From positions 1 to 64,000 of the forward strand of contig CADEDA010000007.1 of the NCBI GenBank assembly GCA_902825965.1: a DNA stretch of 64,000 nt, written 5' to 3'. This stretch comes from an uncultured Gemmatimonadota bacterium. GTDB taxonomy: Bacteria; Gemmatimonadota; Gemmatimonadetes; Gemmatimonadales; Gemmatimonadaceae. Shown piece by piece: positions 27,775-44,194 of the stretch. Below the pieces are notes generated by a model, which saw nothing but the letters and a program-made list of their open reading frames with translations, was not told the origin of the DNA and ran no database searches. How positions within the stretch are numbered: the first letter of the stretch is position 1; each line of letters opens with the position of its first letter. The translations under genes were made by a program, and so were the position numbers.

Positions 27775-28707
27775 ATGGCCCTCCTCTTCCGCAAGAAAGA
27801 CGACGCCCCCCGCAAGTCGCTCTGGCAGCGCATCAAGGACATCGCGCTGACCGACGTCGCGGTGATCGCGCGCGGAGGGGTGGACCAGGGCTCGCTCGAA
27901 CAGCTCGAGCAGATGCTGCTCGAGTCCGACTTCGGCGTGCCGGTGACCATGCGGCTGGTGGACGCGGTGAAGCATCAGGCCACACGCGGCACGGTCAAGA
28001 CGCAGGACGAGTTCCTCGCTGCGCTGCGCGAGGGGATCGAGCAGGCGCTGCGTGCCGGCAAGTCCGACCCGGCGCTGCATCTGCCCGCGAGCCGACCGGC
28101 GGTGCTCATGGTGCTCGGCGTGAATGGGGCGGGGAAGACCACCTTCATCGGCAAGCTCGCGGCCAAGCTGCGCGCCGAGGGCAAGTCGGTGCTGCTCGGC
28201 GCGGGTGACACGTTCCGCGCGGGGGCCATCGACCAGCTGCGCGTGTGGGCTGAGCGTACGGGTGCGGAGTTCGTCGGTGGGGCGCCGGGTGGCGATCCGG
28301 GTGCGCTGGCCTGGCAGGCGATCGACGCGGGTGTGGCGCGCAACGTCGATGTGGTGATCATCGACACGGCCGGGCGCCTGCACACGAGCAGTGCACTCAT
28401 GGACGAACTCAAGAAGGTGCAGCGCGTGGTGGAGAAGCGACTCCCCGGCGCGCCGCACGAGGCGCTGCTCGTGCTCGATGGCACAGTGGGGCAGAACGCG
28501 GTGCAGCAGGCGAAGATCTTCTCGGCGGCGGTGCCGGTGACCGGGCTGGTGGTGACCAAGCTCGACGGCACGGCGCGGGGCGGGGTGGTGCTCGCGGTGC
28601 ACGAGGCGATCGACGTGCCGGTGAAGTTCATCGGCATGGGTGAGCAGGCGGCGGACCTGGTGGCGTTCGACGCGGCGACGTTCGCGCGCGAGTTGTTGGA
28701 GGGGTGA
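27775..28707 (+). CDS. ftsY: Signal recognition particle receptor FtsY
   Basis: FtsY docks SRP-ribosome complexes at the membrane for co-translational insertion. The 310-aa protein has a short N-terminal basic/amphipathic stretch (1-25) instead of the long acidic A domain of E. coli, an N domain (about 15-95) and the G domain. The G domain has P-loop GVNGAGKTT (115-123), 'DTFRAGAIDQLRVW', 'DVVIIDTAGR', 'VTKLDGTARGG' and 'GMGEQAADL' near the end. All G1-G5 elements are intact. The stop overlaps the recG GTG by 4 nt. Confidence 0.96.
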   Translation: MALLFRKKDDAPRKSLWQRIKDIALTDVAVIARGGVDQGSLEQLEQMLLESDFGVPVTMRLVDAVKHQATRGTVKTQDEFLAALREGIEQALRAGKSDPALHLPASRPAVLMVLGVNGAGKTTFIGKLAAKLRAEGKSVLLGAGDTFRAGAIDQLRVWAERTGAEFVGGAPGGDPGALAWQAIDAGVARNVDVVIIDTAGRLHTSSALMDELKKVQRVVEKRLPGAPHEALLVLDGTVGQNAVQQAKIFSAAVPVTGLVVTKLDGTARGGVVLAVHEAIDVPVKFIGMGEQAADLVAFDAATFARELLEG

Positions 28708-30797
28708 CGGCCACCGCGGGGCGGCTCACGCTCGAGACGCCGGTCACCTACCTCAAGGGGGTCGGCCCGCGCCGCGCGGAGTTGTTGAATCGGCTGAACA
28801 TCTTCACCGCCCGCGACCTGCTCTTCCACATCCCGCATCGCTACGAGGATGCGAGCACCGTGCAGCAGATCGCGCGGCTGCGCGTGGGCGACGACGCGAC
28901 GGTGATCGGCACGGTGATCAGCAAGGGCATCCTGCCCACGCGCAAAGGCCTGCGCGTGTTCCAGGCCGTGGTGCAGGACGCGACCGGGCTCATCGAGGTC
29001 AGTTGGCCGGGACAGCCCTGGCTCGACCGCTCCATCAACAAGGATGACGTGCTGCTGTTGAGCGGCCCCGTGCGCTTCTTCCACGGGCGTCAGCTCGCAC
29101 CGCGCGAGTTCGTCAACCTGGGTAAGGACGCCGACGGCACGAGCGGCGGCCGCGTGCTCGCGGTGTATCCGGCGACCGAGGGGTTGTCGTTCAAGCAGAT
29201 CCGCGGACTCATCGATGCGCATCTCGATCAACTGCTGCCGCAGGTGGAGGAGTATCTCCCGCCGTGGATGTTGCAGGAGGCCAAGGTGCCGTCGCTGCGC
29301 GAGGCGTTGGCGGCGGTGCACCGGCCGACGAGCCTGGCGAGTGCCCTCGCGGGGCGAGCGCGATTGGCGTTCGAGGAACTGCTGTTCGTTCACATCCTGC
29401 ATCGCCGTGCGCGGCAGATCGCGCAGCAGGCGCGCGACGGCATCACGTTCGTGAACAAGAAGGACCTCACGAGCAAGTTCCGCGAGGCGCTGCCGTTCCA
29501 GCTCACCAAGGCGCAGGTGCGCTCGGTGCGCGAGATCGTCGCCGACATGTGTGCGCCGCATAAGATGCATCGCCTGCTGCAGGGCGATGTGGGCGCGGGC
29601 AAGACCGTGGTGGCCGTGTTCGCGGCGCTCTTGGCAATGGAGAACGGCTATCAGGTGGCGTTCATGGCGCCGACCGAATTGTTGGCCGAGCAGCATGCGC
29701 GCACGCTGGACCGGTTGCTCGCGCCGCTGGGGATCGTGCCGGTGTTGATCACCGGCTCACGCTCGGCGAAAGAGCGCAAGCTGGCGGCGACGCGCCTGGA
29801 GAGTGGTGAGCCGTTGATCGCCGTGGGTACACACGCCTTGGTGGCCGATGGCACCACGTTCGCGAAGCTGGGCTTGGCGATCATCGATGAGCAGCATCGG
29901 TTCGGCGTGGACCAGCGGCGTGTGCTCATCGAAGCGCGCGGCGCCAAGGTGAAGCCCGATGTGCTGCTGATGTCGGCCACGCCCATCCCGCGCTCACTGG
30001 CGCTGACGATGTACGGCGACCTGGGCGTGTCGGTGCTCGACGAGCGCCCGCCGGGCCGCGAGCCGGTCACGACGGCGCTGAGGCCGGAATCGGCGCGCGA
30101 GAAGGTGTTCGCGTTCGTGAACCGGCAGATCGACGCGGGCCGGCAGGCCTACGTGGTGTATCCGCTGGTGGAGGACTCGGAGAAGGTCGCGCTCAAGGCG
30201 GCGACGTCGGCGTTCGAGGAGCTCACGGCGGGCGCGCTGCATGGGCGGCGCGTGGCGCTGTTGCACGGGAAGATGGGCGCGGACGAGAAGGATGCGGTGA
30301 TGCGCGCGTTCCGTGATGGTTCTTTGGACGTGCTTGTTGCAACGACGGTGATCGAGGTGGGGATCGACGTGCCGAATGCGACGGTGATGTTGATCGAGCA
30401 TCCGGAGCGGTTCGGGCTGTCGCAGCTGCATCAGATGCGCGGGCGGGTGGGGCGCGGGGCGGGGTTGGAGTCGTTCTGTGTGCTGCTGGGGGATGTGGGG
30501 GAGGAGGCGATGGGGCGGTTGCAGGTGTTCTTGGATTCTGAGGACGGATTCGAGATCGCTCGAGAGGACCTGCGGCTGCGGGGGATGGGGGATTTGTTTG
30601 GGGAGCGGCAGTCGGGGGTGCCGACTTTTCGAGTCGCAGACCCGCTGAAGGATGAAGCACTGTCGGAGGTGGCTCGGGGGGTGGCGGAGCGGGTGCTGGT
30701 GGAGGATCCGGAGTTGAAGAAGCCGGCGTATAAGGCGATGCAGGGGATACTTAGGCGGGGGTATGGGCGGGCGTTGGAGTTGTTTCGGGTGGGGTAA
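28704..30797 (+). CDS. recG: ATP-dependent DNA helicase RecG
   Basis: RecG remodels stalled forks and branched DNA. The 697-aa protein has the wedge OB domain (about 55-150), Walker A 'GDVGAGKT' near residue 295, the DExH-type box 'IIDEQHRFG' near 395, 'LLMSATPIPRSLALTMYGDL' (motif III), and motifs V-VI 'VATTVIEVGIDVPNATVMLIEHPERFGLSQLHQMRGRVGRG'. A C-terminal TRG/RecG domain follows. Length is normal. GTG start at 28704 overlaps ftsY. Its final 300 nt grow richer in poly-G codons. The next 128 nt hold no gene and lead into the accessory segment. Confidence 0.96.
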   Translation: MTATAGRLTLETPVTYLKGVGPRRAELLNRLNIFTARDLLFHIPHRYEDASTVQQIARLRVGDDATVIGTVISKGILPTRKGLRVFQAVVQDATGLIEVSWPGQPWLDRSINKDDVLLLSGPVRFFHGRQLAPREFVNLGKDADGTSGGRVLAVYPATEGLSFKQIRGLIDAHLDQLLPQVEEYLPPWMLQEAKVPSLREALAAVHRPTSLASALAGRARLAFEELLFVHILHRRARQIAQQARDGITFVNKKDLTSKFREALPFQLTKAQVRSVREIVADMCAPHKMHRLLQGDVGAGKTVVAVFAALLAMENGYQVAFMAPTELLAEQHARTLDRLLAPLGIVPVLITGSRSAKERKLAATRLESGEPLIAVGTHALVADGTTFAKLGLAIIDEQHRFGVDQRRVLIEARGAKVKPDVLLMSATPIPRSLALTMYGDLGVSVLDERPPGREPVTTALRPESAREKVFAFVNRQIDAGRQAYVVYPLVEDSEKVALKAATSAFEELTAGALHGRRVALLHGKMGADEKDAVMRAFRDGSLDVLVATTVIEVGIDVPNATVMLIEHPERFGLSQLHQMRGRVGRGAGLESFCVLLGDVGEEAMGRLQVFLDSEDGFEIAREDLRLRGMGDLFGERQSGVPTFRVADPLKDEALSEVARGVAERVLVEDPELKKPAYKAMQGILRRGYGRALELFRVG

Positions 30798-30925
30798 GTG
30801 CACGCGCCGAGGAAGTATGCTCGGCCCGCAGTTGGTCGCGCTCTTGCGGGCTGGTGGTCCCCGCTGGAAGTTGCCCCTCCGTGACTGGTGCACACGCGAA
30901 TCGACTCATCCGGCGGAGACGATGA

Positions 30926-33520
30926 ATGAGTTCCACAATCGAAGAGATTCTGTCCTGGGCCGTCGAACTTCCTTACTGGGAGCGAGCAGGGCTCAATCTC
31001 CTTCTAACGGGCAGGGTCCCGACCGCTGCTGATGAAGAAGGATTGCTCGAGCAACTCCTCGCTGACCACGGATTGGCCGCAATGCCGCTGCGCGAAGTAC
31101 TCGCGGGGCCCCCAGCAGCTACCAGCGAAGAAGCTCCGATCGCAAGGCCCACACTTCTGAGAGCACACGGCTTCAAGCGCGTTAACGCCTTGGTGGATGA
31201 TCAAGAGCTTCGCTTCGCGCCGGCGCTGACTGTGTTCTTCGGCGGCAACGGGTCCGGGAAGTCAGGGTACGCGCGCGTCTTGGGTTCTCTAGGATATTCA
31301 CGTGGTGACATCTCGGTCCTCCCCGACGTTACGAAGCCCTGGGAGGAATCCGACGTCATCGAAGTATCAATCGACTACGACGACGGTGGGTCGAAGACCA
31401 TTTGTCATGTTGTTGGCAAGCCCGCGCCAGAGTTGAGATTCATGTACGCCTTCGATACGACGAGCGTCGAGGCGCATTTGTCCGAGCCTCACATCCTTAG
31501 TTTTGCGCCAGCCGGACTCGGGTTGCTCACCAGGCTCGCAGAGTTAACCGATCGAGTGCGCGCACGACTGGCCGAGCGAATTAACTTGATTCCGCACGCC
31601 TTCGCCGTGCCTCCAGCGTTCGCGGTGGACAGCGTTGTGTCACGCGCGCTTCGTTCAGTCGCAGTAGCCTCGGACGTCGCGCAACTTGAAAGTCTCGCGC
31701 TCATGACACCGGCAGACGCTGAGCGGCTCGTGCAATCCGAGCTTGAGATCGCACAGATAAAGGCGAATGATCCACGCGAGCAGGTCGCACTTCTTGAGCG
31801 GCGGGTTCAAAGGATTGAGATGCTGTCTAAGGTCGTTCAGTCTCTCAGTGCCTACGTGTCGTCGCGATCGTCTCAAGACTTTCGTAGTCTGTTCGATGAG
31901 ATATCTGCGAGAAGGCAAGCTATGGAGTCTATCGGTGCGATGCAGTTCGCGAATCCGGGACTGCCACAGGTGGGAACAGAGGCTTGGAGCAGGTTCGTGA
32001 CTGCGGCCAGGGTTCTGGCCGACGGAGTGGATTCGCGACAACTCATCTATCCAGCGGCGGGGGATGTGTGTCTGCTTTGCCAACAGCCTCTGTCCGATGA
32101 AGCTAGGGCGATGTTAGGCCGTCTTTGGGTGTTCCTTAAGGGCGAAGCTAGGAGCGCTCACACTAAGGCCCTCGGGCAGCGAGAGATCTACCAGCGAGAC
32201 CTTGAGACGAGCGCAAAACGTCTGGCGCAGGCGCGAGAGATGATCGCGTTGATGGAGAGTCCGCTGCCGACTGATGTCGGCGAAGCTGTCGAGTCGTTTC
32301 TCGGTAGCGTGGAGCCAACGCTTGCATCTTGGCGGGCGCTGCTCGATTCAGGCGGGCCAATTCCCGTGCTAGGGTCAGCGAAATCGCCCGAGCCCGGTTT
32401 GAACGAACTGGCGACGACACTTCGCGCAGAGGCGGCTAAGCTTCAAAGCACCGATCGAAGCGCGCAAATGCGCGATTTGCAACGTGAGCATCTTGAGCTG
32501 GGTCACCGAAACGCGCTGGCGGGGGTCCTTCCGTCGGTTCGAAAGTTCGTTGAAGAGCGCGAGTGGGCAGCAAAGGCAGCACGAGTCGGGGGGTCGACTC
32601 GCCACATCACGAACCAGTACAATTCAATGTTTTCGTCGCGGGTTACTAAGCGATACGTCGAATTGTTCAAGGCGCATCTTACGGAGCTCGGCTGTCCCGC
32701 CGTTGTCGAGATCGAGACTCGCGGCAAGAAGGGAGAGACAGTTAAACGGCTCTCGGTGCGCTCTGATTCATCCGTGCCAGAAGAGATGTCAACGCCCGGT
32801 CTTGTCCTCAGCGAGGGGGAGCGACGCGCTATCGCGCTCGCCGACTTCTTGACAGAGGTTGCTCTCGATAGGAGAAGCGGTGCGATTGTCCTGGATGATC
32901 CTGTCACGTCATTGGACTTCGACTGGAAGGGAGCGGTAGCACCTCGCCTTGTGCGGGAAGCGAAGGCGAGGCAGGTCATCGTGTTTACGCACGATCTCCA
33001 CTTCCTCTGGTTGTTGTCAGAGAGTGCAGAGTTCGAGAGCGTTCAGATGTCAACTCACTGGGTTAAGCGCGGCGACGATGAGCGCCCCGGGTATGTATTC
33101 TCGGACAACGCACCCTCGCTCGAGCGCGAGTACAAGTCCTCTCAAAAGGCGCGAAAGCTCTACTCTGCTGCACAAGCTGAGAAGCAGCCTGCCAAACGCG
33201 AGCGTCTGCTTAAGGAGGGCTGCGGTGCGCTCAGGACAAGCTACGAGGCCTTCGTGGTGTTTGAGATGCTGAACGAAGTCGTCATGCGCTTCAGTGAAAG
33301 GATCAGCATTGGAAGGCTAGCAGATGTCGTGGTAGACAAGTCTATCTGTCGGAAGGTCGATGAAGCGACTGCGAGATTGTCGCGGTATATCGAAGGGCAT
33401 CTGCACTCGGATGCGACGGCGCTGCGACCTCTCGAGCCGGAGGTCCTGTTGCGCGAAATCGAAGCATTTGATCTGCTTCGAAAGCAGCAGAAGGAACTGC
33501 GAGCGGCGGCAGGCGAATAG
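30926..33520 (+). CDS. PrrC/RloC-like AAA (AAA_13-type) ATPase, candidate defence anticodon nuclease
   Basis: An 864-aa SMC/Rad50-like ABC ATPase. Walker A is at 106-113 (G-G-N-G-S-G-K-S), ABC signature 'LSEGERRA' at 628-635, Walker B 'AIVLDDPVTSLD' at 653-664 and H-loop H689 ('FTHDLHFL'). The middle is helical and contains C382-L-L-C385, reminiscent of the zinc hook of RloC. The C-terminal about 110 residues have R770xxxE774 and R820xxxxH825, a possible HEPN-type RNase site as in the PrrC/RloC anticodon nucleases. A GGCGGAGA ribosome site precedes the ATG by 7 nt. Base composition is visibly lower in GC, with TTA and AGA codons, indicating transfer. The nuclease activity is inferred. Confidence 0.75.
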   Translation: MSSTIEEILSWAVELPYWERAGLNLLLTGRVPTAADEEGLLEQLLADHGLAAMPLREVLAGPPAATSEEAPIARPTLLRAHGFKRVNALVDDQELRFAPALTVFFGGNGSGKSGYARVLGSLGYSRGDISVLPDVTKPWEESDVIEVSIDYDDGGSKTICHVVGKPAPELRFMYAFDTTSVEAHLSEPHILSFAPAGLGLLTRLAELTDRVRARLAERINLIPHAFAVPPAFAVDSVVSRALRSVAVASDVAQLESLALMTPADAERLVQSELEIAQIKANDPREQVALLERRVQRIEMLSKVVQSLSAYVSSRSSQDFRSLFDEISARRQAMESIGAMQFANPGLPQVGTEAWSRFVTAARVLADGVDSRQLIYPAAGDVCLLCQQPLSDEARAMLGRLWVFLKGEARSAHTKALGQREIYQRDLETSAKRLAQAREMIALMESPLPTDVGEAVESFLGSVEPTLASWRALLDSGGPIPVLGSAKSPEPGLNELATTLRAEAAKLQSTDRSAQMRDLQREHLELGHRNALAGVLPSVRKFVEEREWAAKAARVGGSTRHITNQYNSMFSSRVTKRYVELFKAHLTELGCPAVVEIETRGKKGETVKRLSVRSDSSVPEEMSTPGLVLSEGERRAIALADFLTEVALDRRSGAIVLDDPVTSLDFDWKGAVAPRLVREAKARQVIVFTHDLHFLWLLSESAEFESVQMSTHWVKRGDDERPGYVFSDNAPSLEREYKSSQKARKLYSAAQAEKQPAKRERLLKEGCGALRTSYEAFVVFEMLNEVVMRFSERISIGRLADVVVDKSICRKVDEATARLSRYIEGHLHSDATALRPLEPEVLLREIEAFDLLRKQQKELRAAAGE

Positions 33521-33783
33521 CTGGGTAGGCTCATCTTCATCAATGTGGCGGTCTCTGGGAGTGTTCGCGGCCGCTCGAAATCTGTCCGCAGTCGGGCCCG
33601 AGAGTTGCAGTTGAGATTGACTATGGATTCATCTGCTGACTCCGTACGTGAAGTGGTTCGCGGCAGTATCTGGAGCCGCGCAGCCGCATCGGCTGCGTTC
33701 ACTCTCGCTTCGCCCTGAGGTACGGTTGACACTTGGGCATCACCTCAGGTCTATCGGCTCTGTCCCTCAGAAGCTGGAGTGAA
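33521..33783 (+). other. Convergent intergenic region with two hairpins
   Basis: No gene seen. Two inverted repeats could terminate the converging defence genes. GCAGCC (33680-33685) pairs with GGCTGC (33691-33696) around a 5-nt loop. CTGAGGT (33715-33721) pairs with ACCTCAG (33742-33748) around 20 nt. Neither has a good T-tail. Confidence 0.4.
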
Positions 33784-36700
33784 CTAGTAGCGCAGTCTGA
33801 TTCCGCTACTCGACTCTCCAATCTGCCCCTGCGACAGTAGGACATCGATCGCCCGCCCAATCAACTCATCAAGCGCCGGCCCCGTCCGACTGAATCCGAA
33901 CATCGACCTCACCTCAGTAGTCAGCTGGGTCCGCGAGAAACCATGCCCCGACTCTAGAATCGCAAGCACCGCCATCCGATACTCTTCCGGAGCAATCCGC
34001 TCAGCCGAGATCTTGGTACCCGCGCGCGCCCGAACTCGGCACTCGGCGCCCTGATACCAGTAGAACTCGCCGCGTCGCTCGACCACGCCAGATCGCACTG
34101 CGGCCGAGCAAGCTTCCTGGACGCGAGTCTGGATCCTGCTGCCAGCCCGCGACCCCCACATTCCGGCGACGCGCGTGAATAGGTCTGACAGATGGAGCGG
34201 TCCTTCATGCTTGATCACCTCCAACACGGCCTGCGTGACCTGACTGATGGGCGAGGCAAGAATGTCCTGCCCGTCAAAGCGCCCCGTCCCCGGCGCGAAC
34301 TGGTACGCAGCTGCTTTCGGACGGGAATAGGGTTCGAGCGTGCTGCCGCGTTCCAGTAGCGTGCTTGCCTCCGTGCGTGCACGCTCGGTCGCGGCGGATT
34401 CCTCGGCGGCTCTGATCGCAGCCTCGCGCAATCGCGCCTCACGCTCTGCGGCCTGATCACGAGAAGCTCGCGCGCGAGCATCCGCGATGAAGCGCAGTAG
34501 GCGCTCGATCTGCCCCTGGCGGTCCTTGAACCAGTCCGTTGACCAGACGCGGATGATCGTCCACCCTCTAGCTTCTAGGACCTGTTGCCTCAGCCGATCG
34601 CGGTCGCGCGCCGTCTCGGAGGAGTGGTAAGCAACGCCGTCGCACTCGATGCCACAAAGGAATCGTCCAGGAAGATTGTCGTCGAGCACGCCGAGGTCTA
34701 TACGATAGCCGGCAACACCGACCTGCGGTACGACGCTGACACTGCGCGCCGTTAGCTCGTTGAGCACGTCGCGTTCGAAAGGTGATTCGGTGCCGGCAGC
34801 GAGACTCGCGGACGTGCTTTCAAGAACGCCGTGCTCCGCAAAGCGAAGGAACTCCCTGAGCAAGGTAGCTCCTCGCGATGTCGTTCCTGCGGCGCTGATC
34901 TCGTCAGCCTTCATCGACGAGAAGACACGCATCCGCTGTCGGGCGCGGGTCGTCAGCACGTTCAGACGGCGCCAGCCGTTTTCACCGTTGAGCGGTCCGA
35001 AGTTGTAGCGCAGCTTGCCATCCGATGCGCGTGCGTACGTAACGCTGATGAAGATTACATCGCGCTCGTCGCCCTGGATGTTCTCGAGATTCTTCACGAA
35101 GAAGGGCTCGTGCACGCCGCGGTCGAAGAACGGTTCCAAAGAGGGATCGTCGCGCCGTCGTTGTTCGAGCTCGTCCTGTATTGCCAACTGCTGCCGCAGG
35201 TTGAAAGTCCCGACGCCGAGTGATTGGGTCGGAAGTCCCGTCGCGCGGCGCTCGAACTGCTCCTTGGCGAACCGCACGACCTCGTCCACCACTCGTCTCG
35301 CCTCCGCGCTATTGAGGCCCTTCCCTTCGTATACGCCGTTCGGCACGAACTCGAACTGCAACCCGGTTGTCTCGGAGCCGGTCTCGACACTCGGGAACGT
35401 GTAGAGGTCGGACTCGTAGAACTGCACGTTCGAGAAGCTAATCAGCGACTCGTGGGCCGAGCGGTAATGCCACTTGAGCCGGCTCATCGGAACACCCGCA
35501 CCCATGTACTCTTCAAGGATGCTCTCCGAGTCCTCAACGAGCGGGAGGCCGTCTTCGTCGAGCTCCGCGTTGGTGATGCCGCTGGAGGTCGCGAAGAAGT
35601 TGGTGGGTGGCAACTGCTTCGGATCGCCGACCACGATCAGCTGCTTCCCGCGGTGGATGGCTCCGACCGCATCCTCGGGCGGGAGTTGCGAAGCCTCGTC
35701 GAAGATGACGAGATCGAAGCTCGAGTCAGCGCCCGGCAGTAGCTGTGCGACCGTTTGTGGACTCATCATCAAGCAGGGCTTTATCGCTCGGACTGCTGCG
35801 CCGGCCTGACGCATCGTGCGTCGGAGCGGGCTTATGCCGCGTTGTCGCGCAAGTTCCTTCCGCAGGTAGGCCATCTGTTCGCCGGGCACCTGTGCGCGCA
35901 AAGCATTCTGAACGCGATCGCGGAGGCGCCCCACAAGGGCCGCACGATTCTCCTTGAGGACGCGCTGGTCGAGCTCCTGGAACTCCTTCACGCGTTCGTC
36001 GTGCGCGACCGTCTGAAAACGCTCGAGTTCGGGGCGCTCGCGAACGACTCCCTCGAGCCACTTCATGTAGAATGCGCGCAGGAAGGTTGGGGCCAGCGCG
36101 TCAAGTGCGACTTCGCCCGAAAGCGCGCGCGCGACGAACGGTCCGGCGAGGGTGTCGGCGGCGGCTCGCCGAGCGCTCTCGAAGGCGGCCCATGAGGGCG
36201 CTTGACCGCGGGAAGACGAGATCGCGGCTGCACGAGTAGCGATCACGTCCAGTCGTTCATTTGCGAGATAGTCGGAGGGCCATCCGAGCGCGGTTCGTAG
36301 AGCCACAAGCGTGGCCGCGACGCGGTCGGCCGCCGCGCGCATCTGATCGACTGATGACATTCGCGGGGCGGGGGACTGCGCAGTTTCAAGTGCCCGGCCC
36401 TGCAGTCCGTGCTTGACGCAGAGCCCCCGGAACTCGACGACCCACTGGACATAGTTGTCCAGCGCAGGCGCCGAGCTCTCTTCGCCGTTCCAGAGAGTTC
36501 CGAACAGCTCGATTCCCAGATGAGCTGACTGGGCGAGCGCGCGGCGATCCTTGGTCAAGCGGTTCACTTGCCGCATGGCCGCAGCCTGTTCGAGCAAACT
36601 GGGCTTGTACGTCGGCTGCCGGTACGACAGCCAGCGCCGCTTTACCGAGCGGAATCGACCGTCAAGGATGGCGAGGAAGCCAAAGAACCCTGAGAGCTTG

Positions 36701-38679
36701 GATTCGACGTATGCGATGTCTTGCGCGTGGTCGTGCCCCAGTACCTCAGGAAGGAACAGCTTGTTCACGCGTGCCGCGAGCTGCTGGATGTCCTTGAGTC
36801 TAGCCATCAGTTCGGTGGCGGGTGCAGGAGGCTGGTTCCATGCGTCGCTGCCGAGGACCGCCGCTGGTGCGCCGGGTGACCGACGCATTACCGTAGATAT
36901 GGTGGCTGCTGTGTCGACATCGCTGATCAGAGCGATCGGAGGAAGCTGGTACTCATCGGAAACCGCGACCGCGGTGGCGATCAGGCCGCTTGTCGCTGCG
37001 TGCAGTCGATTTGCAAGGTCGGCGATCTCCTCGATCAATTCTTCCGTGAAGAACGTCTTCGTGCTGTCCCTCCACGGATTCTCGCTGAGCGGTGCAACCA
37101 CAGCCGCCGCCGCTACCAGATCCTGAACGCCGCGGACGGCGTCGGATAGCTGTTGCGTAGTGGTGCCATCGACGGGCGCGTTGTATTTCATCCTGTGCGC
37201 GCTATGCACGCGGCCGAGCTCCCCGTACACGCGGTAGGGAGAGAGGCCCAGCGTTCCGTGGGGGGTGTGCGCGGCCTTGGTGTACGCGGTGAGGGTCGCG
37301 CGGACCTGAGGCAGCCGCTGCGTCGAAACTGTGGGTGCGGCGACGGACTGAAGTGATGCGTCTAGGGCCAAGCCGAGTTCGCGCATCACCGAACGCTTAT
37401 TCGCCTTGGTGGAATGCAGTTCGAGGCAGAACTCGCCGAGATTCGCTTGAACGAGACGATCGTGAACGACAGAGAGCGCTGCCATCTTTTCGGCGACGAA
37501 AAGCACCGACTTGCCAGCGGAGAGGGCCTGCGCGATCAGGTTCGTGATTGTCTGAGACTTGCCGGTACCGGGGGGACCTTCGACCACGAGATCGTGCCCG
37601 CGAGCCGATGCCGCAATAGCGCGCAACTGGCTCGAGTCCGCGTCGACGACTTGGAAGGTCGACTCAGGTGGGTAGTCGACGTCAAGGTTCATCGACCCGA
37701 TGTCGTGCGGGAGTCCAACGCCGATTCCGCCACCCGGTGCGTTGCGTGTCACGAGTTGACGGATGAGCCGATGCTCTAGCAGCGCATCGCGGGAGGCCTC
37801 AAGATCCTTGTACATTACGAACTTCTGGAAAGACAAGAGTGCTAAGTAGATATCGTTCTTGACTGACCAACCTGGCTTTCCGGCGACCAGCGTTGCGGTG
37901 GCGCCGAGGAGTGCCTGCAGGTCGTAATTGTCGGGGAGCGTGCTGAGATCGGGCAGTTCCGGCAGAGTGATCGCGTGGTCACGCTTCAGGTACTCCGCGA
38001 GCGCGGGATTGACCATCGGCTCGTCCTCGGCCGCGCGAACCTGATAGCCCGAGCGTGCGGACTTACGTGTCAGCGCGACGGGCAAGAGCACGAGAGGGGC
38101 TCTCAGCGTGATGTTGGAATCGCGCGACTCCGTATAGTAGAGCATGCCGAGCGCGAGAAAGAGTGTGTTGACGCCCTGTTCCTCGATCGAGAGGCGCGCC
38201 TGCTCGTCGAGGCGTCGCAGAGACTTGTCGAGTGCGTCCGCAGTCGAGGAAGTCTGAAGGCCGTCGTCCCGGTGCTTCTCCTCCAGAGAACTTGGGTCGT
38301 ACGGGACGAATTCCATCGACGGGATCGGCTCGTCATCCTCGTCAGCGTCATCGAGTGCGAGACTCGGATCGGGAGGGGTCACTCCTCCCGCTGCTATGGG
38401 GGACGGCGTCTTCGCGTCCTCGTCCGGAGCCGCGAGGAACTTCATGGCGCCTTCGCGAACGTAGAGCGTTCGGAACACTTCCGCAGGCTGTTCGTCGACG
38501 ACGGTGACCGTCGAGACCTTGTTGACGCGAAAGCTCAGAGCTCGGTTGCGCTTCGTAAGGTCCAAGAGCTTGCGCTGCCAGCTGTCGACCGACGCGACGA
38601 GTTTGCCGTTCCGCGCGGGAGCCGGACTGGTCTCGCGTGGCGGAACGGCGTCTGCGTTTGGAGTGTGCGGTTCTGTCAT
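33784..38679 (-). CDS. DUF4011-SF1 helicase-Vsr/MTES_1575-like nuclease-DUF3320 protein (candidate anti-phage protein)
   Basis: A giant 1631-aa multidomain protein. Order: DUF4011-like N-terminal region (about 25-310, including 'SWQRKLLDLTKRNRALSFR'); SF1 helicase with Walker A GPPGTGKS (368-375); a long inserted helical domain; 'DLVIFDEASQLPPEDAVGAI' near 990 and 'VVGDPKQLPP'; helicase C-terminal motifs ('ENIQGDERDVIF', 'NVLTTRARQRM'). A PD-(D/E)xK-type endonuclease fold follows near 1290-1390 ('RIDLGVLDDN...', 'GIECDGVAYHSS', 'WTIIRVWSTDWF'), then a DUF3320-like and winged-helix tail. Proteins of this DUF4011-helicase-Vsr design have been described as phage-defence genes. ATG 38679 is preceded by AGGAAG. 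It converges with the AAA gene. Confidence 0.85.
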   Translation of the reverse strand: MTEPHTPNADAVPPRETSPAPARNGKLVASVDSWQRKLLDLTKRNRALSFRVNKVSTVTVVDEQPAEVFRTLYVREGAMKFLAAPDEDAKTPSPIAAGGVTPPDPSLALDDADEDDEPIPSMEFVPYDPSSLEEKHRDDGLQTSSTADALDKSLRRLDEQARLSIEEQGVNTLFLALGMLYYTESRDSNITLRAPLVLLPVALTRKSARSGYQVRAAEDEPMVNPALAEYLKRDHAITLPELPDLSTLPDNYDLQALLGATATLVAGKPGWSVKNDIYLALLSFQKFVMYKDLEASRDALLEHRLIRQLVTRNAPGGGIGVGLPHDIGSMNLDVDYPPESTFQVVDADSSQLRAIAASARGHDLVVEGPPGTGKSQTITNLIAQALSAGKSVLFVAEKMAALSVVHDRLVQANLGEFCLELHSTKANKRSVMRELGLALDASLQSVAAPTVSTQRLPQVRATLTAYTKAAHTPHGTLGLSPYRVYGELGRVHSAHRMKYNAPVDGTTTQQLSDAVRGVQDLVAAAAVVAPLSENPWRDSTKTFFTEELIEEIADLANRLHAATSGLIATAVAVSDEYQLPPIALISDVDTAATISTVMRRSPGAPAAVLGSDAWNQPPAPATELMARLKDIQQLAARVNKLFLPEVLGHDHAQDIAYVESKLSGFFGFLAILDGRFRSVKRRWLSYRQPTYKPSLLEQAAAMRQVNRLTKDRRALAQSAHLGIELFGTLWNGEESSAPALDNYVQWVVEFRGLCVKHGLQGRALETAQSPAPRMSSVDQMRAAADRVAATLVALRTALGWPSDYLANERLDVIATRAAAISSSRGQAPSWAAFESARRAAADTLAGPFVARALSGEVALDALAPTFLRAFYMKWLEGVVRERPELERFQTVAHDERVKEFQELDQRVLKENRAALVGRLRDRVQNALRAQVPGEQMAYLRKELARQRGISPLRRTMRQAGAAVRAIKPCLMMSPQTVAQLLPGADSSFDLVIFDEASQLPPEDAVGAIHRGKQLIVVGDPKQLPPTNFFATSSGITNAELDEDGLPLVEDSESILEEYMGAGVPMSRLKWHYRSAHESLISFSNVQFYESDLYTFPSVETGSETTGLQFEFVPNGVYEGKGLNSAEARRVVDEVVRFAKEQFERRATGLPTQSLGVGTFNLRQQLAIQDELEQRRRDDPSLEPFFDRGVHEPFFVKNLENIQGDERDVIFISVTYARASDGKLRYNFGPLNGENGWRRLNVLTTRARQRMRVFSSMKADEISAAGTTSRGATLLREFLRFAEHGVLESTSASLAAGTESPFERDVLNELTARSVSVVPQVGVAGYRIDLGVLDDNLPGRFLCGIECDGVAYHSSETARDRDRLRQQVLEARGWTIIRVWSTDWFKDRQGQIERLLRFIADARARASRDQAAEREARLREAAIRAAEESAATERARTEASTLLERGSTLEPYSRPKAAAYQFAPGTGRFDGQDILASPISQVTQAVLEVIKHEGPLHLSDLFTRVAGMWGSRAGSRIQTRVQEACSAAVRSGVVERRGEFYWYQGAECRVRARAGTKISAERIAPEEYRMAVLAILESGHGFSRTQLTTEVRSMFGFSRTGPALDELIGRAIDVLLSQGQIGESSSGIRLRY

Positions 38680-38967
38680 GCTTCCTACTGCTTCGAGGTG
38701 GCATCTTGGCGTGCGTGCGCTTGGGACACTAAAGCGAGGTACGGTAGGCGGCAACTTTTCCCACGTCACCGCCTTGCGCGCGACCAAAGGTTCGGGCGCA
38801 CAAAAGACGCTGGAGCCATTGCGACCCCTGGCACCGTATTCGACTCGACCACCGTGCCCGACTCCCCCCCTCACCCCCCACTGCCGCGTCGGGCGCCAGC
38901 TCGATGAGGGCGGCACGCCCACCGTCAACCTTGCCGGGGACCTCAAGTACGGCCGCCATGTCGTCCT

Positions 38968-39174
38968 CTAGGTCTTCTTACCCGAGCTAGCCGTAGTTTT
39001 GGCGGCGACTCTTCGGAGTGCCCTCGGGTAAGCGCCGCATTCGGCCTCTTCTGCGCAGAGTTTCATCGTACGGATCGTCTCACGCATCGCGCGTCGGGTC
39101 ACGCAGTCGCGACGTGAAATGCCGGCACAGGTCGCGGCGATGGTGGGGAAGTCCCCAGAGAAGCTGCCGCACAA
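38968..39174 (-). CDS. Possible small Cys-containing protein or gene remnant
   Basis: A 68-codon frame starting with TTG, containing 'FPTIAATCAGISRRDCVTRR' and 'LCAEEAECGAYPRALRRVAA' with five Cys in all. The same frame stays open upstream to beyond 39290 without another usual start codon. That suggests either an atypical start or the 3' remnant of a longer gene truncated at the boundary. The composition is protein-like, but I recognise no family. Low confidence. Confidence 0.3.
   Translation of the reverse strand: MCGSFSGDFPTIAATCAGISRRDCVTRRAMRETIRTMKLCAEEAECGAYPRALRRVAAKTTASSGKKT
38977..39032. repeat. 10-bp perfect inverted repeat, 36-nt spacer
   Basis: CTTACCCGAG (38977-38986) is repeated inverted as CTCGGGTAAG (39023-39032). 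It sits at the edge of the less GC-rich segment. It could be a regulatory hairpin or a boundary mark; there is no transposase nearby and no visible target-site duplication. Confidence 0.5.
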
Positions 39175-39299
39175 TAGACCATGCTCTGCGCGTTCGATGG
39201 ATTCACCTTCTGGGAGGCGGAGCGGCGTGAGAGGGTGTTCTCCCCACGAGCGGAGTTTACCGCTGTCGCCGCCGGCCGCACCTTGGAGTAACTTCGCGC

Positions 39300-40970
39300 A
39301 TGCGCACTCTCCGCCTGCCGGTCCTCTTCGCGGCCCTCGCCCTCGCCGCCCCGCTGCAGTCCCAAACGTTCCACCTCTCCTTCGACCGCACCACCCACGC
39401 CGAGCCCATCACCGGCCGCGCGTACTTGTTCATCGCCCGCACCGACCGCACCGAACCCCGCCTCCAATCCGGCGCCCGCCGCACCAGCGAGCCCTTCTTC
39501 GGCGTCGACATCGCCGCCCTCCGCCCCGGCGAGCGCGTCACGTTCGACAGGTCCGTCCTCGGCTTCCCGCTCAGCTCACTCGCCGAACTCCCCAAGGGCG
39601 ACTACTTCATCCAGGGACTCATCGTCCCCTACACGCAGTTCAAACGCGCCGACGGCCGCACCATCTGGGCGCACATGGATGCGGGGGAAGGGCAGCGCTT
39701 CAATGCCGCGCCCGGCTCGCTCGTGAGCGAGGTCGTGAAAGTGCGCATCGATCCCGCCGCGCGCACGCCCATCGCGCTGCGACTCAGCAAGGTCATCCCG
39801 CCCATCCCCACGCCGCCCGAGACCGAGTGGGTGAAGCGCTTCCGCATCCGCTCCGAGCTCGCGAGCAGCTTCTGGGGCCATGACATGCACTTGGGTGCCG
39901 TGGTGCTGCTGCCCAAGGGCTACCAGGAGAATCCCGCGCGGCGGTACCCGGTGGTCTATACCATCGGGCACTACAGCGATCGCGCGCCGTTCGGGTTCAC
40001 GTTCGAGGGCTGCGATCGCCCGGAGACGGCCGAGGCGCGTGCGGCGCGGCTGGCGCGGACCAATCGCGAGCCGGGCTGCGAGTTCCAGAAGGCCTGGACC
40101 GCCGGCGAGGTGCCGCCCTTCATCGCGGTGTTCATCCAGCACACCACGCCCTTCTACGACGACAGCTACGCACTCAACTCGGCCAACAACGGGCCCTACG
40201 GCGATGCGATCACGCGCGAGCTGATCCCGGAGATCGATCGGCGCTTCCGCACCGTGGGTGCGCCGTACGCGCGGGTGCTCACCGGGGGCTCCACGGGCGG
40301 ATGGGACGTGCTCGCGCTGCAGGTGCACTATCCTGACGTGTTCGGCGGCGCGTGGTCGCTGTATCCCGACCAGCTCGACTTCCGGAACTACCAGTTCGGC
40401 GACGTCTACGCCGACAGCAACGCCTTCGTGCGCGCCGATGGCTCGTGGATGCCGCGCGAGATCCCCTCGAGCCGCTCACCGGAGGGCATCACGGACCTGA
40501 CGGTGCGCGAGGAGAACCAGGCGGAGCTGGTGATCGCCACCAAGGGGCGCTCGGGCGGCCAGTGGGACGGCTGGCAGGCGGCCTGGGCACCGGTGGGTCC
40601 CGATGGCTACCCCGCGCAGCTCTGGGACAAACGCACGGGTCGGATCGACACCAAGGTGGCCGAGCAGATGCGCGAGCGCGGGTACGACCTGCGCGCGTTC
40701 CTCGAGAGGCACTGGAGCACGGTTGGTCCCAAGCTCGTCGGCCAGCTGCACATCGCCGTGGGCGACATGGACAACTACTTCCTCAACCTCGGCGTGTACC
40801 GCATGGAGACCTTCCTCGAGAGCACGAAGGAGCCGGGGAAGGGACCGTACTACGCCGGGACCATCGAGTACGGTAGGCCCCTCAAGCCGCACGGCTGGCA
40901 ACCCTGGACCAACCAGGATCTGCTGCGGCTCATGCAGCGGCACATCGACCGCAACGCGACTCGGCCGTAG
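39300..40970 (+). CDS. Secreted esterase-like alpha/beta-hydrolase (esterase D/Fes-type)
   Basis: A 556-aa exported protein. Signal peptide is at residues 1-22 ('FAALALAAPLQSQ'). An N-terminal beta domain (about 25-165) precedes the hydrolase core. 'AVVLLPKGYQENPARRYPVVYTIGHY' starts the core and 'VLTGGSTGGWDVLALQ' holds the nucleophile S331 (GxSxG). A likely histidine lies toward the C-terminus, for example in 'GQLHIAVGDMDNYFLN'. C238 and C260 could form a disulfide. The substrate is unknown. TAACTT (39289-39294) five nt before the ATG may be the -10 of a leaderless mRNA. High GC resumes here, outside the accessory segment. Confidence 0.8.
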   Translation: MRTLRLPVLFAALALAAPLQSQTFHLSFDRTTHAEPITGRAYLFIARTDRTEPRLQSGARRTSEPFFGVDIAALRPGERVTFDRSVLGFPLSSLAELPKGDYFIQGLIVPYTQFKRADGRTIWAHMDAGEGQRFNAAPGSLVSEVVKVRIDPAARTPIALRLSKVIPPIPTPPETEWVKRFRIRSELASSFWGHDMHLGAVVLLPKGYQENPARRYPVVYTIGHYSDRAPFGFTFEGCDRPETAEARAARLARTNREPGCEFQKAWTAGEVPPFIAVFIQHTTPFYDDSYALNSANNGPYGDAITRELIPEIDRRFRTVGAPYARVLTGGSTGGWDVLALQVHYPDVFGGAWSLYPDQLDFRNYQFGDVYADSNAFVRADGSWMPREIPSSRSPEGITDLTVREENQAELVIATKGRSGGQWDGWQAAWAPVGPDGYPAQLWDKRTGRIDTKVAEQMRERGYDLRAFLERHWSTVGPKLVGQLHIAVGDMDNYFLNLGVYRMETFLESTKEPGKGPYYAGTIEYGRPLKPHGWQPWTNQDLLRLMQRHIDRNATRP

Positions 40971-41870: not shown

Positions 41871-41915
41871 GGCGCGCCTTGCCTAGGCGCGCCCTACGGA
41901 GGCGCGCCTTACCGA
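41871..41915. repeat. 15-bp tandem repeat (GGCGCGCCTTRCCKA), three full units
   Basis: GGCGCGCC recurs at exactly 15-bp intervals (41871, 41886, 41901, and a degenerate fourth copy at 41916). It fills the gap between the convergent VOC and serine-hydrolase genes and runs into the end of the latter. TGAGGCGCGCCTT at 41868 is repeated within the MocR gene near 50653. Confidence 0.65.
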
Positions 41916-43552
41916 GGCGCGCTGCGACACACCGCCCCGGGCGCGAGTGACGCCTCGCGCCCCAGCGGCCCCACACTCAGGAACTGCACCTGCGCCGGCT
42001 CCGTCGGCGCGAGCGTGATGCGCACCGCCAGGTCGCCGCGCGCACAGCGCATGCGCCAAACGCCGCGCAGCGCGTTCTCCACGATGAACGGACCCTCGTT
42101 GCGGCACTCGCCGCCGGCCATGTCGCGCAGTGTGGCCAGCTGCGCCTGCCGCCGCTCGGCCGATTCGTCGCGGAACAGGTTCATCGCCGCGAGGGAGTCG
42201 GCGAGGGGACCCGACCAGGCCTGCACCAGGCGTGACACCTGTGCCCGGCGCGTCTCGAGCACGGGGGCGGGCTGCGGTTCGCGCGGCTCGAGGGCGCCGG
42301 TGCGCTTGAGGATCTCGAACGCCTGATCCACCGTGGGCGTCCAGGGCGTGTAGGTGAGGCTACCCAGCGCGATGATGCCCACGCCGTGCTCGGGCAGCCA
42401 CTTCATGATGGAGCCGTAGCCGGGCAGGCCGCCGGTGTGCGACACGGCCGCGCGGAAGTCGCAGTTCTGGTTCACGCGCAGGCCGTAGCCGTAGCCGCCG
42501 GCGTTGAGCGCCAGGGCGTTGGCGCCGGCGAAGGCCGAGGCACCGCTGAAGCGCTGGATCTGCTGCATCTCGCGACGCGAGCTCCGCGAGAGCACCGCAC
42601 CCTCGGCGCCGTCGCGGGCCGGCCAGGCGTCGAGCATGAACGCCACCCAACGGGAGAGGTCGGCCGGGGTGGTGAGCATGCCGCCCATCACGCCGAACGC
42701 GCCGTCCGGGAGCGGCGGCTCGAGCAGCCATTGGCCGTCCTGCAGACGGTAGCCGTACGCGAGCCGGGTGGGGTCCACGTCCCGGGTCTCGAGCGTGGTG
42801 TTGCGCATGGCGAGCGGGTCGAGGATGCGCTCGCGCAGGTAGCGGGCGTACGGGATGCCCGAGACGTTGCTGACGATGCGCCCGAGGATCGCGAAGCCGT
42901 AGTTGGAGTACTCGTAATTGGTGCCCGGCGCGGTGGAGAAGGGGATCCCTCCGCGCATCATGGCGCTGAAGGCCTCCTCGGTGGCATCGAGTTGCTGGTC
43001 GCCCCAGGGGTTGTCCTCGGGGAAGCCGGCCGAGTGGGTCATGAGGTGCCGCACGGTGATGCGCGGGGCGTCGGCGCTGGCGTAGCGCAGCGACTTGAGC
43101 TCCGGCACGTACCGCTCGGCCGGGTCATCGAGCGAGAACTTGCCCGCGTCGCGCAGCTGGAGGACGGCGACGGCCGCGAAGCTCTTGCTCATGGACGCGA
43201 TGCGGAACACGGTCGCCGTGTCCGCGCGCGTGTTGCTGCGGGTCTCGCGGATGCCACCGGCCACCACGTGGGCGAGGCGTCCGTCGATGATGATGCCGTA
43301 GGCGTAGCCCGGCACGCGGCGCTGCGCGGCGAAGGCGGCCATCAAGGAATCGATGGCCGGGAAGGCGGCGCGGAGCTTGGTGCCGCGGTCGGGGTCGGCG
43401 AAGCGGGGCGCTGGGGCGACGGAGCTCAGGGCAGGGGTCTGCGCCGGGAGATCCGAAGGCCGAGGAATGAGCAGGACGACCGGGAGGACGGCGCCGAGCA
43501 TTGCGGCGCGAGGGCGGGCGACGAGGAGTGGCATGGCCAGATAATGTGGCAT
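41909..43552 (-). CDS. Secreted serine hydrolase of the beta-lactamase/DD-peptidase fold
   Basis: A 547-aa class-C beta-lactamase-like protein (Beta-lactamase superfamily, PF00144 type). It has an N-terminal signal segment (about 14-38, 'AMLGAVLPVVLLIPR...PAQ'), S120-M-S-K123 (SxxK), Y215-S-N217 (YxN) and H372-T-G-G375 in place of KTG, so the active site is complete. A C-terminal extension of about 120 residues follows the core. Natural substrates of such enzymes are usually D-amino-acid peptides or esters rather than antibiotics. Start at ATG 43552, with ATG 43534 as alternative. It shares its upstream region with the divergent antitoxin operator. Confidence 0.87.
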   Translation of the reverse strand: MPHYLAMPLLVARPRAAMLGAVLPVVLLIPRPSDLPAQTPALSSVAPAPRFADPDRGTKLRAAFPAIDSLMAAFAAQRRVPGYAYGIIIDGRLAHVVAGGIRETRSNTRADTATVFRIASMSKSFAAVAVLQLRDAGKFSLDDPAERYVPELKSLRYASADAPRITVRHLMTHSAGFPEDNPWGDQQLDATEEAFSAMMRGGIPFSTAPGTNYEYSNYGFAILGRIVSNVSGIPYARYLRERILDPLAMRNTTLETRDVDPTRLAYGYRLQDGQWLLEPPLPDGAFGVMGGMLTTPADLSRWVAFMLDAWPARDGAEGAVLSRSSRREMQQIQRFSGASAFAGANALALNAGGYGYGLRVNQNCDFRAAVSHTGGLPGYGSIMKWLPEHGVGIIALGSLTYTPWTPTVDQAFEILKRTGALEPREPQPAPVLETRRAQVSRLVQAWSGPLADSLAAMNLFRDESAERRQAQLATLRDMAGGECRNEGPFIVENALRGVWRMRCARGDLAVRITLAPTEPAQVQFLSVGPLGREASLAPGAVCRSAPR

Positions 43553-43581
43553 CGGGGCGAATAGCGCGAATCAGGCAAAAG

Positions 43582-43601
43582 TATTACGGTATACCGCAAT
43601 A
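43582..43601. promoter_or_regulatory. Operator palindrome of the AbrB/PemK operon
   Basis: A 20-bp near-perfect palindrome (one mismatched pair) centred on GGTATACC lies 19 nt before the antitoxin start. A TAATCT -10 candidate (43600-43605) overlaps its right edge, the usual place for antitoxin autorepression. It may also affect the divergent serine hydrolase gene. Confidence 0.65.
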
Positions 43602-43620
43602 ATCTGAGAGGAGCGGCCGC

Positions 43621-43851
43621 GTGTACATCTCCAAACTCACCTCCAAGCACCAGGCCTCGATCCCCCGCGCCGTCCGGGAAGCACTCGGCCTCGAAGCCGG
43701 CGACCGGGTGCAGTTCCTGTTCTCCGAGGACGACGGCCGCATCTATATAGAAAAGGGACCGGACGCCGACCCAGACGTCGCGGCGCTCGAAGCCACCTTG
43801 TCTGCCGAGTGGGAGTCGGAGGAGGACGACCATGCGTTCGGCGGCCTTTAA
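43621..43851 (+). CDS. AbrB/MazE-type antitoxin
   Basis: A 76-aa protein with an N-terminal swapped-hairpin AbrB DNA-binding fold ('SKLTSKHQASIPRAVREALGLEAGDRVQFLF', about 4-35, written here as its recognisable pattern) and an acidic C-terminal tail ('AEWESEEDDHAFGGL') that would neutralise the toxin. It starts at GTG 43621 after a GAGAGGAG ribosome site. It overlaps the toxin gene by 20 nt, so the pair is translationally coupled. It should bind the palindrome just upstream and repress the operon. Confidence 0.9.
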   Translation: MYISKLTSKHQASIPRAVREALGLEAGDRVQFLFSEDDGRIYIEKGPDADPDVAALEATLSAEWESEEDDHAFGGL

Positions 43852-44194
43852 GCCCGGCGATGTGGTGGTGATCCCGTTCCCGCTCGCCGGTGCCCGCGTG
43901 AAGAAGCACCGGCCTGCGCTGGTCTGCTCCCGCCAGGAGTTCAACTCCAGCGCCGGCCACGTGGTGCTCGCCATGATCACGACGGCCACCACCCACGGCT
44001 GGCCGAGTGATGTCCGGGTACTCGACCTCGCTTCGGCCGGCCTGCCGCAGGGGTCGGTGGTGCGCTGGAAGCTCTTCACGCTCCCCGCCAAGACCATCAT
44101 CCGGAAGATCGGCGCACTCAGCGCCCCCGACCGCTCCGCCTGCGGACTGGAGCAACCGGTGCGGATCGGGGCGGCGGCGGAGCCGCGGGCCTAG
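43832..44194 (+). CDS. PemK/MazF-type endoribonuclease toxin
   Basis: A 120-aa PemK/MazF-family protein. It opens with 'KPGDVVVIPFPLAGARVKKHRPALVCS', the typical beta-barrel N-terminus, followed by 'EFNSSAGHVVLAMITT' and ends with 'LPAKTIIRKIGALS'. These mRNA interferases cut mRNA or tRNA when the labile antitoxin is lost. The catalytic Arg/Ser/Thr positions appear kept, so the toxin is probably active. Its stop codon forms a CTAG overlap with the stop of the convergent hypothetical gene. Confidence 0.9.
   Translation: MRSAAFKPGDVVVIPFPLAGARVKKHRPALVCSRQEFNSSAGHVVLAMITTATTHGWPSDVRVLDLASAGLPQGSVVRWKLFTLPAKTIIRKIGALSAPDRSACGLEQPVRIGAAAEPRA

Follow-up and report, generated by a model that had tools for sequence, protein, structure and literature searches.

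The window analysed here, 64,000 nucleotides of a contig from an uncultured Gemmatimonadota bacterium, contains between the end of recG at 30797 and the start of an esterase-domain gene at 39300 an interval occupied by two large convergent genes. One encodes a long-form RloC-like ABC ATPase that is a predicted anticodon nuclease (hereafter the AAA gene) and the other a protein combining DUF4011, an SF1 helicase, a Vsr-like nuclease and DUF3320 (hereafter the helicase gene; Table 1). A previous reading of the DNA made from the sequence alone (the sequence-only reading) had described a convergent pair flanked by recG and an esterase gene, and the open reading frames and the PF00756 domain of the right-hand neighbour agree with that description.

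Table 1. Features of the recG-esterase interval and its borders (positions in the window)
Feature	Position	Strand	Basis or remark
recG	28704..30797	+	ORF; left anchor of the variable interval; RecG 97% identical in G016
Long-form RloC-like ABC ATPase / predicted anticodon nuclease, 864 aa	30926..33520	+	PADLOC PDC-S06
Walker A GGNGSGKS, residues 106-113	31241..31264	+	G106, N108, G111 and K112 invariant in 81 sequences
Zinc-hook CxxC (C382-L-L-C385)	32069..32080	+	both cysteines in 81/81
ABC signature SEGE, residues 629-632	32810..32821	+	S629 and E632 in 81/81
Walker B / D-loop DDPVTSLD, residues 657-664	32894..32917	+	D657, D658, P659 and D664 in 81/81
Predicted catalytic triad R770-x3-E774-x50-H825, C-terminal helical domain	33233..33400	+	conservation and RloC definition
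DUF4011-SF1 helicase-Vsr-like nuclease-DUF3320 protein, 1631 aa	33784..38679	-	PADLOC PDC-S37; ProA/Hhe-like
DUF3320 winged-helix domain	34129..34257	-	PF11784, E 9.3e-12
Vsr-like nuclease domain REase_MTES_1575	34486..34779	-	PF18741, E 8.6e-35; conserved D..IECDG..YH...ARDRDR
Helicase Walker A GPPGTGKS	37555..37578	-	motif and its conservation
DUF4011 domain	37987..38571	-	Pfam PF13195, E 1.6e-41
Esterase-domain gene	39300..40970	+	PF00756; right flank of the interval

The interval is set apart by its composition, per-kilobase GC over 31-39 kb being 0.575-0.646 versus about 0.71 in the rest of the window. Taking the 37 other genes of the window longer than 200 codons as a baseline (GC3 mean 0.891, standard deviation 0.056, minimum 0.744; 0.24 TTA per 1000 codons), the GC3 of the AAA gene (0.637, with GC 0.584 and 2 TTA, 5 AGA and 14 AGG codons) falls 4.5 standard deviations below that of its neighbours. 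The low GC and the TTA and AGA codons that had been remarked on in this gene are thus present in the GC and codon profiles, and the helicase gene is atypical as well, since its GC3 is 0.737 and it contains 1 TTA, 7 AGA and 10 AGG codons (GC 0.631). Searches of the recG-esterase interval for a tRNA, integrase, transposase or flanking repeat were negative, and the island ends showed no direct repeats, inverted repeats or tRNA. This low-GC pair of probable anti-phage genes is probably a recent acquisition.

Two further observations concern the DNA to the right of the esterase gene. An ORF of 224 aa at 43426-44100 on the minus strand has unusual codons (2 TTA, 3 AGA, GC3 0.79) and no Pfam match; it overlaps the gene next to it and could be spurious. 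The gene at 41909-43552, on the same strand, encodes a hydrolase of the serine beta-lactamase fold (PF00144) that scores under all listed resistance-gene cut-offs and is probably an ordinary peptidase or esterase.

Along its entire length the product of the AAA gene aligns with PADLOC PDC-S06 (E 2e-119), and it exceeds the cut-off of Pfam AAA_13. RloC was defined (PMC2610378) as a protein of 658-897 aa in which an ABC ATPase, split by a coiled coil with a CX2C zinc hook, is followed by the residues Arg-X3-Glu-X36-52-His. Each of these elements is found in the AAA protein, whose length falls in this range: the Walker A, signature and Walker B/D-loop motifs together with the linchpin histidine H689, the zinc hook in an insert that splits the ATPase and is modelled with long helices on both sides, and the R-E-H triad. 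An alignment with homologues drawn from 80 GTDB-collection loci and with four more of its own phylum gave 81 usable sequences, 23-44% identical to the AAA protein, among which H689 is invariant or nearly so, R770 is kept in 79, E774 and H825 in 80 each, and the spacing from Glu to His is 48-51 across the family. By every sequence mark that could be tested the AAA gene is that of a predicted RloC-type anticodon nuclease, and PDC-S06, the ATPase motifs, the zinc hook and the triad all bear out the RloC-like identity proposed earlier.

Short forms of PDC-S06, picked by PADLOC model and motif geometry and not from a named RloC sequence, have their CxxC and R-x3-E at positions similar to those of the published G. 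kaustophilus RloC. When the profile of the AAA gene was aligned by HHalign with that of the short forms (probability 99.7%, E 2e-25, over 375-781), the zinc hook and R-x3-E were in register; compared with the short forms, the AAA protein has about 65-80 additional N-terminal residues that form conserved helices. The AF2 model of the protein (pLDDT 85.7) has Rad50 and SMC heads as its best folds. The C-terminal domain modelled alone reached pLDDT 90.3 and its first Foldseek match was the HEPN structure 2hsb, a suggestive but non-significant one (E 0.27, prob 0.82), and its comparison with HEPN by VIA gave a Z of 7.8, a level at which unrelated helical bundles score equally. The assignment of RloC to HEPN is that of the literature (PMC3710099). 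A sequence search for a solved RloC structure returned none, the matches being only to the ATPase parts of Rad50, SMC and AriA.

As hsdM-like matches lie near the RloC-like gene in 6 of the 80 GTDB-collection loci, linkage of such genes to restriction-modification (R-M) is occasional. In one well flanked case the gene for a near homologue, 42% identical to the AAA protein, lies immediately after hsdM-hsdS and overlaps by 4 bp. In this stretch (L091:2922-9218) an RloC is built into a type I R-M locus, and a PD-Lambda-2_B-like HTH/peptidase gene comes after the RloC-like gene.

The product of the helicase gene covers the full PDC-S37 profile (1479 bits) with DUF4011, SF1 helicase, MTES_1575 and DUF3320 all present, and Pfam detects the helicase domains AAA_11/AAA_12, in keeping with the DUF4011-helicase-Vsr-DUF3320 architecture first read from the letters. 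Walker A, the DEAS box and the nuclease motif are kept in an alignment of 22 sequences. Its score of 1381.9 bits against NCBIfam ProA (NF058533, profile 341-1903 of 1903) lies below the threshold of 1500, and that of 930.1 bits against Hhe (NF042953, parts only) below the threshold of 2000. Since the ProA cut-off is not reached we file the protein as PDC-S37 and ProA-like, and as it is below both cut-offs it does not inherit a tested anti-phage function by name. The most likely translation start is the ATG at 38679, in place of the TTG at 38946 of the mechanical ORF; the purine-rich GTAGGAAGC stands immediately 5' of this ATG and similarity to relatives begins near the same position. Relatives with 55-63% identity are present elsewhere in the phylum. 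The architecture of an MTES_1575 Vsr-like nuclease with a wHTH was described in 2013 (PMC3710099); a search of the open literature on DUF4011/DUF3320, PDC-S37 and recG hotspots found almost nothing.

When the recG-esterase interval was compared among relatives, the same genes were not found at the same place. Searches of the 16 other genomes of the genus, which scored only a few first-look candidates per genome so that absences are not absolute, detected neither subfamily. A distant helicase, 33% identical, is present at another position in one of them (G001). The sequence-only reading would have lost ground had the pair been a fixture of this locus throughout its relatives, and since neither subfamily turned up in the rest of the genus this was not the pattern observed.

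The genes 3' of recG differ among relatives, so that within this clade recG anchors a hotspot on its left. In G016 the genes that follow recG encode a dGTPase, a nucleotidyltransferase-like protein, an HNH protein and a DUF2326 ATPase (PDC-M68), each gene having low GC3. The cargo after recG in G014 (RecG 89% identical) is likewise low in GC and comprises an OLD-like ATPase and, together with an unassigned small partner, a Hachiman-like helicase. At one site, three sister species carry three differing candidate defence sets. The assemblies of G016 and G014 are drafts that place recG and the esterase gene on separate contigs, and the right border of the cargo is not on the recG contig. In G005 the space from recG to the esterase gene is taken up by an ordinary GC-rich Vps10/BNR gene, with no defence cargo. 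In more distant members the genes 3' of recG are of native composition and in many genomes lead to a 435-aa gene, in G004 a class II (Asp/Lys/Asn-type) tRNA synthetase. The Hachiman-like helicase of G014 (L058:6812-10452, 944 aa) is related to HamB/PDC-M23B and lies 3' of a 269-aa protein that has no PADLOC or Pfam match and is possibly a divergent HamA.

The least expected detail is that remnants of recG lie inside two of the sister islands. In G016 a decayed piece of 251 bp (L056:8548-8797), 73% identical to the middle of recG (E 1e-37), is located between the nucleotidyltransferase-like and HNH genes, the intact recG lying about 2.2 kb away, and in G014 a decayed recG 3' end of 46 bp (L058:6745-6790, 83%, E 4e-8, peptide RGYGRAMELFR) is located between the OLD-like and Hachiman-like genes. 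The window's own cargo yielded only short chance-size matches to recG. Compared with G016, the recG of the window has 11 mismatches in its last 30 nt and 145 in the other 2064, and these last 30 nt are closer to G014 than to G016; as one other 30-nt window has 9 mismatches, the divergence of the recG end is suggestive only. Taken together with the recG pieces in the two sister islands, it suggests recombination within recG itself. We tentatively propose, as a possibility that falls somewhat short of being probable, that the 3' side of recG serves this clade as an exchange site for defence genes, where incoming cargo recombines inside the gene or beside it and supplies the recG end that it carries itself, decayed pieces of recG staying behind between successive modules. 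If this is true, islands would grow and swap without an integrase.

It is likely that the interval is lineage-specific defence cargo at the recG 3' hotspot, made up of two complete and probably independent defence genes and acquired, as we envisage it, by recombination anchored in recG. PADLOC lists PDC-S06 and PDC-S37 each as a single-gene candidate system, each gene is normally found without the other, and their convergent orientation requires separate promoters; each is most likely a complete defence unit. In the studied RloCs, DNA breaks are sensed via the ATPase and zinc hook and tRNA is cut (PMC2610378, PMC3874168). By analogy, the Rad50-like ATPase with its zinc-hook coiled coil would sense broken or foreign DNA and release the C-terminal R-E-H nuclease, which would cut tRNA anticodon loops, so that translation halts and phage growth fails. 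Shutdown of translation by the AAA protein itself we infer from its motifs and from this published work on other RloCs. The PDC-S37 helicase with its Vsr-like nuclease probably moves along invading nucleic acid and cuts it.

The sequence-only reading had offered either a defence island or a two-layer system in which a translation-shutdown nuclease stands behind a helicase-nuclease directed at DNA. In a fuller version of the latter, as one dedicated system, phage DNA would be attacked by the helicase-nuclease, and the RloC-like protein, on sensing the resulting breaks or a failure of this first layer, would arrest translation. The island at recG stands, and the coupling of the two genes appears improbable. 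Coupling would agree with their adjacency here and with the response of published RloC to DNA breaks (PMC3874168), and the pair does recur: in the phylum of locus L109 (398 genomes, 18 with the RloC-like gene and 44 with the PDC-S37 helicase) both are found in 5 genomes versus 2.0 expected (Fisher p 0.038, relatedness ignored) and are adjacent in two of them, in tandem 106 bp apart with an integrase gene near in G403 (L109) and convergent about 3 kb apart in G661. This excess is small and can be explained by clustering in defence islands, as defence genes often co-localise without functional coupling. In the 395 genomes of the window's own phylum the RloC-like gene was detected in 5 and the PDC-S37 helicase in 17, a patchy distribution, and the two were found together only here. 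A PDC-S37 gene is beside the RloC-like gene in only 3 of the 23 RloC-carrying genomes of the two phylum samples and near it in only 1 of the 80 GTDB-collection loci, which is not the recurrent adjacency with conserved order of a two-gene system; order and orientation vary, and therefore there is no shared operon, and in G661 the helicase is in two ORFs. A two-layer coupling is not needed to explain the data. The split helicase-nuclease of G661 (L182:8922-15538) consists of overlapping ORFs of 959 and 1247 aa and may be a frameshift, a sequencing error or a true two-gene form.

That the AAA gene encodes a Rad50/SbcC-like housekeeping or repair ATPase without nuclease activity, its low GC being an ordinary local fluctuation, is very unlikely: the model does have Rad50 and SMC heads as its best folds and the neighbouring recG is a repair gene, but the C-terminal domain with the R-E-H triad, almost invariant here, is absent in Rad50/SbcC (PMC2610378), the gene was not found in the 16 genus relatives, and its GC3 lies 4.5 standard deviations below that of the neighbours. 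Still harder to credit is that both genes are decaying, non-working remnants of a larger mobile element, an idea that would suit the atypical composition and the lack of any mobility gene, since neither reading frame is shortened and the catalytic motifs of both are intact.

Both kinds of gene are already known, and the locus adds further members to them. One of them, from a phylum in which such genes are rare, is an RloC-like nuclease of the long form whose N-terminal helices are conserved; we know of no studied representative of this form. As PDC-S06 of PADLOC carries the complete RloC signature, its mechanism is predictable, and the signature would help to fix the annotation of this candidate. 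The recG-anchored site is a place to look for new defence genes of the clade.

Compared with the RloCs of G. kaustophilus and A. baylyi (PMC2610378, PMC3874168), the AAA protein has the same ABC motifs and CxxC hook and a Glu-to-His spacing and length within the published ranges, and the type I R-M linkage is seen in the near homologue described above (L091). It differs in that Walker A begins at residue 106 versus about 31-40 in the short forms, in the Gly before H825 where RloC frequently has Ser, and in the absence of R-M genes at the window locus. Within PADLOC its full-length match is to the long-form models PDLC04891 and PDLC04893 of PDC-S06, an entry for a candidate system without stated mechanism. 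The helicase resembles PDC-S37, ProA and Hhe in DUF4011, the SF1 helicase motifs, the MTES_1575 Vsr-like nuclease and DUF3320, and is unlike ProA in having no counterpart of the N-terminal ~340 residues of that model. The site itself is anchored by recG, belongs to another phylum and has remnants of its anchor gene inside two islands, unlike the core defence hotspots of P. aeruginosa (PMC10250203), and yet it shares with them a variable defence cargo carried beside conserved core genes with no obvious mobile element.
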